A stretch of DNA of 13,203 nt from Acidobacteriota bacterium (lineage in GTDB: Bacteria; Acidobacteriota; Terriglobia; Terriglobales; Acidobacteriaceae), in NCBI GenBank assembly GCA_021798235.1, contig JAJZMO010000266.1, forward strand, positions 1-13,203, in the 5' to 3' direction. The position numbers and the translations under genes were made by a program. Below, piece by piece: positions 6,489 to 7,793 of the stretch. The stretch's first letter is position 1; the number at the start of each line of letters is the position of its first letter. The notes below the pieces were generated by a model, which searched no databases, was not told where the DNA came from, and saw only the letters and a program-made list of their open reading frames with translations.

Positions 6489-7793
6489 TCACACGCCCAG
6501 CTTCAGCGCCGCGTCCGCCGTCAACCGCTCGTCTGCAAACTTCCCCGTCACCAGCTTCGGCCAAGCCGCCGCCGCAATCATCGCGGCGTTATCCGTAGAC
6601 AGCTTCAAACTCGGAAACGCAATCGGCAATCCCTGCGCCCGCGCCTCGGCCGTGAAGTGCTCCCGCAACTCGCGGTTCGCCGCCACCCCGCCCGACACCA
6701 GCACGCTCGCCGCACCAAACCGCTCCGCCGTCTGGAACGTCTTCCGCCGCAAGTCCTCCACCACCGCCCGCTGAAAGCTCGCAATCAGATCCAGTGTCTC
6801 CTGGTCGCACAGCGCGCGCACCAACTCCAAATCCCGCTTGGGACTCGCCCCCGGCATCGCCGCCAGCGCCGCCCGCCGCTGCGCAATCCGCTCTTCCATC
6901 CCATGCACCTGCGTGTAGCGCAGCACTGCCGTCTTGATCCCGCTGAAGGAAAAATACGTCGCCTCCTTCGGATCCAGCGCGCCCGCTTCGCCCCTGCGAT
7001 GCGCCTTGGCTTTGATCTGTGCAAACGAAAACGGCACCGCCCCTGCGTCGCCAAACGGAGCCAGCGCATCCAGCCACGGCCCGCCCGGATACCCCAGTCC
7101 CAGCAGCTTCGCCACCTTGTCGAACGCCTCGCCCGCCGCGTCGTCCACCGTGCGCCCCACATTGCGGTAGTGCCACGCACCATTTTGTTCCTGTGCCAGA
7201 TACAAATGCGTATGCCCGCCAGAAACCACCAGCGCAAGAATAGTCTGCCCCGCCTCAAAAGGCTCCCCGGGTGCCCCATTGCCGGGCCCCCCACGAACAG
7301 GTCCTTGTTCGTGGGGTGGATACAAGCCTGAAGTTGGCTTGTGTAGGATTTGCGCGTCCGCCCGTGCGGCCAGCACTTCCAGCAGCACCGCGTGAATATG
7401 CCCCTCCAGATGATTCACCGCAATCAGCGGCTTCCCCAGCCCGAACGCCAGCGCCTTGGCATAACTCACGCCCACCAGCAGCGCCCCCGGCAGTCCCGGC
7501 CCCTCTGTTACCGCCACCGCGTCCAGATCTGCAAACGCCACGCCTGCCTCGGCCATCGCCGCTTCCACCACCGGAACTACCGCCCGCAAATGCTCCCGCG
7601 AAGCCAGCTCCGGAACCACCCCGCCAAACCGCGCATGCAGCGCAATCTGCGACGCCACCACATTCGACAGCGTCTCCCGGCCGCCCCTCACCACCGCCGC
7701 CGCCGTCTCGTCGCACGAGCTCTCGATGCCCAGAATCAATCCCTGCGGCACCCTGCCCCGGCCTTGTTTCACTTCCGTCACAATCTTCCTCAT
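6489..7793 (-). CDS. tsaD: tRNA N6-adenosine threonylcarbamoyltransferase TsaD, with an internal repeat-derived insert
   Basis: TsaD (Kae1/Gcp family) transfers the threonylcarbamoyl group to A37 of ANN-decoding tRNAs, with TsaB and TsaE. The 434-aa product carries GIESSCDETAAAVV (residues 22-35), the metal-binding HLEGH (His128, His132), LVVSGGHTHLYLA (188-200), YFSFSGIKTAV, LVSGGVAANRELR and the metal ligand Asp401 in STDNAAM. It is about 95 residues longer than the usual ~340. Part of the excess is a ~14-residue N-terminal extension and a linker near 295-325. The striking part is residues ~147-178, rich in Gly/Pro and encoded by a palindromic repeat. All catalytic blocks are intact, so the protein is probably functional. 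The ATG at 7793 sits 5 nt after a -10 box (TAGAAT), suggesting a leaderless transcript. Confidence 0.95.
   Translation of the reverse strand: MRKIVTEVKQGRGRVPQGLILGIESSCDETAAAVVRGGRETLSNVVASQIALHARFGGVVPELASREHLRAVVPVVEAAMAEAGVAFADLDAVAVTEGPGLPGALLVGVSYAKALAFGLGKPLIAVNHLEGHIHAVLLEVLAARADAQILHKPTSGLYPPHEQGPVRGGPGNGAPGEPFEAGQTILALVVSGGHTHLYLAQEQNGAWHYRNVGRTVDDAAGEAFDKVAKLLGLGYPGGPWLDALAPFGDAGAVPFSFAQIKAKAHRRGEAGALDPKEATYFSFSGIKTAVLRYTQVHGMEERIAQRRAALAAMPGASPKRDLELVRALCDQETLDLIASFQRAVVEDLRRKTFQTAERFGAASVLVSGGVAANRELREHFTAEARAQGLPIAFPSLKLSTDNAAMIAAAAWPKLVTGKFADERLTADAALKLGV
7260..7355. repeat. Palindromic repeat module inside tsaD
   Basis: On the plus strand the order is CCCGGGTGCCCCATT head, hairpin CCCCACGAACA (7289-7299) / TGTTCGTGGGG (7306-7316), a perfect 11-bp stem, then a second hairpin ACAAGCC (7322-7328) / GGCTTGT (7336-7342). 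The head recurs at 6437 and the first 17 bases of the hairpin recur exactly at 10989-11005, both in intergenic DNA. Read from the minus strand it is open and encodes residues ~147-178 of TsaD. The outer edges are approximate. Confidence 0.75.

Follow-up and report, generated by a model that had tools for sequence, protein, structure and literature searches.

An elongated loop of the TsaD protein encoded in an acidobacterial contig carries an in-frame palindromic element, and the insert is very probably a translated copy of a dispersed element that landed in a tolerant surface loop, in the manner of the Rickettsia palindromic elements (RPEs). The DNA analysed, referred to below as the window, is a stretch of 13,203 nt whose relevant features are collected in Table 1. 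An earlier sequence-only reading of the window had drawn the parallel to RPEs, and it is supported beyond tsaD by (i) the same composite read in the same frame in rimO, (ii) dispersal of the element across the family and (iii) in-frame copies in further genes. The host is an acidobacterium, as that reading had supposed. The closest named TsaD relatives are from Acidobacterium sp., Granulicella sp. and other Acidobacteria MAGs, and judging from these the family would be the Acidobacteriaceae.

Table 1. The tsaD gene, the palindromic element within it and related copies elsewhere in the window
Feature	Position	Strand	Remarks
tsaD, tRNA N6-adenosine threonylcarbamoyltransferase, 434 aa	6489..7793	minus	TIGR03723 and PF00814
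Composite palindromic element A+B, 80 nt	7269..7348	+	Read antisense, in frame in tsaD; part of the 68-residue loop
Unpaired 5′ tag GGGTGC of A	7269..7274	+	Word GGGTGCCCCAT in G001
Nested B unit, 42 nt (14 codons)	7281..7322	+	In window and G001; missing from A at the same site in congener G002
B-unit hairpin, 11-bp perfect stem	7289..7316	+	Arms 7289-7299/7306-7316
Inner stem of A, 7-bp perfect hairpin	7322..7342	+	Arms 7322-7328/7336-7342
Non-coding A-type element	6438..6476	+	Between convergent 3′ ends of formyltransferase gene and tsaD
Non-coding B-unit copy, alone	10982..11017	+	83% identical to 7282-7317

The outer part of the element, A, consists of the unpaired GGGTGC tag and a hairpin of the form CCCCA-stem-loop-stem-TGGGR, and is mostly 32–38 nt long (up to ~55 nt). 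In the tsaD copy, a B unit with its own 11-bp hairpin interrupts the 5′ arm of A, and the A+B composite has a length of about 78–80 nt. As judged by eye, B is flanked within A by at most 2–6 similar bases. The sequence-only reading had described an insert of ~96 bp with two perfect hairpins; both stems are present, but the element proper measures 80 nt, and the hairpins do not lie side by side. Instead, the outer element has its 5′ arm divided by the 42-nt unit and the 7-bp hairpin as its inner stem. The strand between positions 7260 and 7360 folds better than 200 of 200 shuffled versions (z = −4.05). The insert was also correctly read as staying open throughout in the tsaD frame; the length of 80 nt is not a multiple of three, and that of the whole loop is. 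At Rfam gathering thresholds no known RNA family is present in the window, and no tRNA was found in it.

Parts of the module had been noticed in non-coding DNA at 6434 and 10989, and both are real matches, with the boundaries given in Table 1. The tag of the first is one C short in the window and complete in G001, the nearest genome compared; the adjoining formyltransferase gene (PF00551) is purN by eye. A degenerate tagged element (GGGTGCCCCTCGATAAGGACAAAGGCTTTGTC...) occupies positions 3080–3160, directly after a serine hydroxymethyltransferase gene. The window also holds a second dispersed repeat (TTGTCATCCCGACCG.AG ... GCGCGAAGYGGAG.AAYCTGCGGT), unrelated to the palindrome, at 1163–1254, 10285–10335, 10786–10838, 10898–10924 and 11024–11050, and a similar TCATCCTGAGCGA repeat piece is found in frame in the RimO loop of the congener G002 (L198).

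The window gene scores 348.3 bits against the TsaD equivalog model TIGR03723 (cut-off 296.1). From HLEGH to SGGHT, both motifs included, its product has 68 residues, the upper end of a range of 29–68 across 64 TsaD sequences, a set made up of the window and the best-matching related loci in which near relatives are over-represented, the near-identical G001 copy is included and one loop is present twice (L051, L324). The commonest length is 35 residues (28 of the 64), and 24 of the 64 exceed 37 residues. Only four of these loops contain the tagged element, namely those of the window, G001, G002 and L053, another acidobacterium in which a hairpin with a degenerate tag (AGGCGCCCCATCC) lies in the tsaD loop; most simply, the L053 hairpin is an independent insertion. 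The other 20 loops longer than 37 residues are made of unrelated sequence rather than of a homologous segment. An ancestral TsaD segment is ruled out by the 60 of 64 TsaD sequences that lack the tagged element, and the more distant congener G003 lacks it in both tsaD and rimO.

Genome-wide counts were made in G001, standing in for the assembly of the window, with which it shares 80% of sampled 31-letter words; the two tsaD genes differ at 8 positions in 1305 nt. The 11-mer GGGTGCCCCAT occurs 20 times in G001 against once for its reversed control, so that the head and hairpin DNA proves to be dispersed in the host genome as the sequence-only reading had anticipated. Fifteen of the 20 copies head a hairpin with z ≤ −2, compared with 10 of 200 random stretches, and by eye the outer partner GTGGG follows in 19 of the 20. 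The stems themselves vary, for example ATTCAAGCC/GGCTTGAGT versus ATACTTTCTTTTCG/CGAAAAGAAAGTGT in G001.

A second A+B copy of G001 lies inside rimO, which was called from codon usage on 383 kb of that genome and matches TIGR01125 with 485.9 bits (cut-off 356.95). A first tag scan allowing one mismatch, which returned 139 rows including many plain coding matches with no hairpins, was used only to locate this copy. The two genes share the antisense frame in which the composite is read (HKPTSGLYPPHEQGPVRGGPGNGAPGE in TsaD, LKSKEGLNPSDGRGPVHGDPGNGAPSL in RimO). At the same tsaD and rimO sites, the congener G002 has A without B and the congener G003 has neither; TsaD identity is 87% for G002 and 80% for G003. 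The B unit at these sites may either have been gained in the G001 line or lost in G002. The RimO loop of another genome, G019 (L219), contains an exact tandem duplication of ~33 residues, which is real or an assembly error.

Across the family, GGGTGCCCCAT gives 814 matches in 48 genomes against 21 for the reversed control, compared with 25 against 25, that is, background, in 32 genomes of other families. The GGGTGC element thus appears to be restricted to one acidobacterial family within this sample of 80 relatives. Its spread is uneven, with 157 matches in one genome (G037) and fewer than five in 15 of the 48. Among the matches listed for G037, 26 tag copies are on contig C1 and the rest on C6, where tags are crowded and often form opposite-strand pairs about 90–170 nt apart, like REP dimers. 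A search of 300 family genomes with a 36-base composite pattern found it at eight places in five of them, and the control at none. Five of these eight are in frame in genes, a share that is biased in that the tsaD and rimO copies served to build the pattern: tsaD and rimO (both in G001), scpB (G210), mnmG (G305) and a weakly MscS-like gene (G241) whose MscS match is far below cut-off and which has no Pfam match. One of the remaining three is ambiguous at an N-terminus and two have no convincing gene. The ORFs at three loci of G241 (L280, L284 and L289) resemble one another (LAIGAIDPSHATKLLYAAQ...), and each contains an in-frame tagged element in its C-terminal part; the L280 ORF, scanned against NCBIfam and Pfam, belongs to no family there.

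These distributions bear on the idea that the loops of TsaD, RimO and MnmG are simply hypervariable and unconstrained, drifting by slippage and tandem duplication, with the palindromes being incidental. The wide range of TsaD loop lengths and the 20 long loops that lack the tagged element would fit such drift, as would the tandem repeats in the TsaD loops of L025, L321 and L323 and the heptamer-type repeats in MnmG loops. But the loop DNA fits a 36-base pattern, tag included, that recurs in unrelated genes of several genera and is absent from the control, the tag word is strongly enriched in the family, and drift does not bring a single dispersed element into two genes of the same genome. We regard drift as very improbable and, as sole cause, already refuted; it survives as a reason why these loops tolerate insertions.

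In-frame elements are present in mnmG, tgt, rimM, uvrC, UDG and scpB of family members. The most detailed picture comes from three genomes of one genus, g9, where GGGTGCCCCAGGTCC occurs at 97 places with at most one mismatch (reversed control 3). Of the 93 copies examined, in 90 loci, 71 lie outside and 22 inside ORFs called by a simple codon-usage caller. In thirteen of the 22 the coding score reaches 9 or more on each side of the copy, and the other nine, terminal or weak, were not counted. Host genes that exceed curated cut-offs in g9 are rimO, tgt, rimM, uvrC, UDG family 4 (twice) and mnmG, with a further, orthologous mnmG copy; three more, an ABC ATPase, a YdiJ/GlcD-like oxidase and a Dpp5-like peptidase, fall below the cut-offs of their best families. 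Over the whole analysis, genes that pass a curated cut-off and contain an in-frame element are tsaD, rimO, mnmG, tgt, rimM, uvrC, UDG family 4 and scpB. The non-genic g9 copies that could be placed (60 of 71) lie between same-direction (28), convergent (23) and divergent (9) gene pairs; all adjacent pairs in those loci number 85/38/19 in the same order, which leaves a modest excess over background.

A further 30 copies, the first 10 listed for each of G002, G037 and G030, include four that lie in genes and are flanked by coding signal on each side. All four are in G037; a single 593-residue ORF that matches nothing in Pfam holds two of them, and a penicillin amidase gene and a carboxyltransferase gene hold one each. 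The penicillin amidase copy alone has a strong hairpin; two of the four have a weak hairpin or none, one of the pair in the 593-residue ORF having none. Another two of the 30 lie at an N-terminus, where their placement is ambiguous.

The MnmG loop of g9 contains tagged hairpins in 8 of 30 loci, a proportion that favours element-bearing loops in that the query itself contained an element and the best 30 loci were taken, from 43 genomes with a match. The loop of L227 has a second tagged hairpin with a degenerate tag. Several of these hairpins begin at one point, and by eye their stems differ yet still pair. Among the g9 loci L227–L256, MnmG loops with no tag often contain heptamer-type repeats read as EQGTGNREQG, and that of L254 contains PLRQAQDRPSTSLHSAQDDG, which resembles another translated dispersed repeat. 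Because repeats of the heptamer type occupy other g9 MnmG loops, some loops are so far general sinks for in-frame repeats: MnmG in g9, and TsaD in L025, L321 and L323, where other tandem repeats fill the loop in frame.

The element is read in three frames in total across its host genes. The antisense frame is used in tsaD, in rimO of G001 and in the weakly MscS-like gene, and the sense frames are +1 in mnmG and +2 in scpB and in rimO of G305. The view that it is the antisense reading that is tolerated as peptide fits tsaD and the G001 rimO, but antisense is not special family-wide. Of 90 A-type hairpins, 64 have no stop codon in any of the six frames, a number that falls to 34 when each of the 90 is shuffled once; the hairpins were gathered by a script that requires pairing, and this stop-free excess is partly due to base composition and choice of copies. 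An excess of lengths divisible by three was looked at and is not proven.

The use of three frames, which yields unrelated peptides, argues against a selected protein function, in which the element would supply a linker, docking or regulatory segment to translation-modification enzymes. Recurrence in tsaD, rimO, mnmG, tgt and rimM is consistent with such a role, and PMC3733652 reports REPs lying within tRNA pseudouridine synthase genes; yet elements are also carried by uvrC, UDG, ABC ATPase, penicillin amidase and carboxyltransferase genes. This is, in our estimate, the least probable of the alternatives considered, with little chance of being correct.

It is slightly less improbable, though still very unlikely, that the element acts in genes as nucleic acid, as an mRNA hairpin, in pausing or attenuation or as a segment skipped by the ribosome, so that the hairpin rather than the peptide is selected. 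Stem pairing is indeed kept despite base changes. Among 20 distinct 35-nt copies, four of 10 pairs have changed on both sides and every cell pairs, a completeness that owes something to the pairing-based choice of copies, as the variety of pair types does not; the MnmG-site stems noted above behave in the same way. Against bypass, in-gene copies are in frame and stop-free, which would be needless if they were skipped (although the caller could find only open ones), and just one of the 60 placed non-genic copies lies within 60 nt of two same-strand ORFs, these being two separate complete genes. The 60 of 64 TsaD loops with no tagged element also argue that the hairpin has no conserved role in tsaD.

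We return to the reading of the insert as a dispersed element translated in a tolerant loop, and to its consequences for the host proteins. Outside the loop, dN/dS is 0.118 for tsaD (window versus G002) and 0.114 for rimO (G001 versus G002), and these values of about 0.12 indicate purifying selection on both genes. Between the window and G001, tsaD has seven synonymous and no non-synonymous differences outside the loop and one non-synonymous difference inside the element. An assembly artefact or pseudogene is ruled out, since two assemblies agree on the insert (they may or may not derive from one sample) and both genes are under such selection; the host proteins presumably still work. The AlphaFold model of TsaD has a mean pLDDT of 89 and matches solved TsaD 3zet_B best (target TM 0.89). 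Residues 155–175, between helix 128–150 and strand 185–190, are below 50; the model is of low confidence over most of the insert, which would fit a disordered segment. When the insert peptide was searched against 5.8 billion proteins for matches of similar length, TsaD alone came back (1 match of 56 candidates, E up to 1), so that the exact peptide is not widespread.

In the sequence of events that we propose, A would have entered the TsaD surface loop in an ancestor of the window species and the congener G002, and B would have been gained later at the tsaD site, or lost in G002. The gene would have survived for two reasons: the loop is dispensable and its length already varied, and the element, rich in GC and usually free of stops, would yield a disordered Gly/Pro-rich linker wherever an insertion keeps the frame. 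Insertions that break the frame or the fold would be purged, and those in tolerant loops of conserved genes would persist, as with RPEs. Active mobility, neutrality of the peptide and purging of bad insertions are in this respect what we infer. Among the non-genic g9 copies there is no indication that an element has split a gene out of frame, as expected if frame-breaking copies are purged, although this is a weak test; a split gene at L182 is ruled out, there being two separate complete genes.

The sequence-only reading had called the element mobile. Dispersal and presence/absence at orthologous sites speak for this, but no mobilizing enzyme was found, and neither a transposition event nor a target duplication was observed, the loops of the congeners being too divergent to show a duplication. 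Y1_Tnp genes are present in all seven genomes tested (24 matches). In the eight of these 24 loci that were examined, with flanks of up to 1.5 kb, there is no tagged hairpin, and mobilization by a RAYT is not supported. With one mismatch allowed, the flanks contain four tag-like words in three loci, none of which heads a hairpin, and two looser words in L191.

Rickettsia is the best-known source of in-frame palindromes, and the usual explanation there is reductive evolution with weak selection. RPE-1 is read in a single, fixed frame, unlike the three frames used here. The host in the present case is a soil-type acidobacterial family rather than Rickettsia, and the likeness drawn here is one of placement. 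As described in the texts of PMC3733652 and PMC10969869, RPEs are dispersed palindromes found in frame in unrelated conserved genes and read as extra peptide, and R. conorii proteins with an N-terminal RPE-1 are reported to be expressed (PMC3733652). The lengths given above for A and A+B are shorter than the RPE length of about 150 bp stated in PMC10969869, and the build, a tagged hairpin in which a 42-nt unit is nested, also differs.

GTAG/CGTC-tagged REPs (Di Nocera et al. 2013; PMC3733652) resemble the element in having an unpaired tag at one hairpin end and in being mostly intergenic, between convergent or same-direction genes; in g9, 71 of 93 copies are outside ORFs. A minority of those REPs are reported in ORFs, including uvr and tRNA-modification genes, and the main text of that paper names Acidobacteria once, for a group of tyrosine-transposase genes. 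The conserved unpaired end here is GGGTGC, neither GTAG nor CGTC. Likeness to RAYT/REPIN systems lies in the ubiquity of Y1_Tnp genes among the genomes tested and in the recurrent opposite-strand tag pairs of G037, and the difference in the examined Y1 flanks, which contain no cognate tagged hairpin. MITEs such as ERIC, BOX and QMITE1 are likewise small non-autonomous repeats that sometimes form in-frame gene fusions, as the text of PMC10969869 has it; in the present element, neither long terminal inverted repeats nor a clear target duplication was seen. A 2025 REP survey (PMC12306157) tables Granulicella aggregans, and its available text does not describe the GGGTGC element. By title or abstract start, no description of a GGGTGC-tagged acidobacterial element was found in the open-licence literature. 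In-frame palindromes as such (REPs and RPEs) are already known; what is new is the GGGTGC tag, the nested 42-nt unit, the restriction to one family in the sample and the staged presence and absence at two orthologous sites.

More generally, it is conceivable, if on balance doubtful, that the Acidobacteriaceae host a class of frame-neutral coding palindromes, mostly stop-free in six frames and often 3n long, which are spread by a mover of some kind, nest into each other at a fixed point and repeatedly colonize exposed loops of the translation-modification enzymes TsaD, RimO, MnmG, Tgt and RimM. If this were true, frame-neutral palindromes would make selfish DNA a regular source of new protein segments in free-living bacteria. 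The finding itself points to a distinct, family-wide system of in-frame palindromes in free-living soil bacteria, outside Rickettsia. Congeners with none, with A alone and with A+B at two orthologous sites make the steps from selfish DNA to protein directly comparable. It is also a warning for annotation, in that lineage-specific Gly/Pro-rich loops in conserved Acidobacteriaceae enzymes may be repeat-derived.
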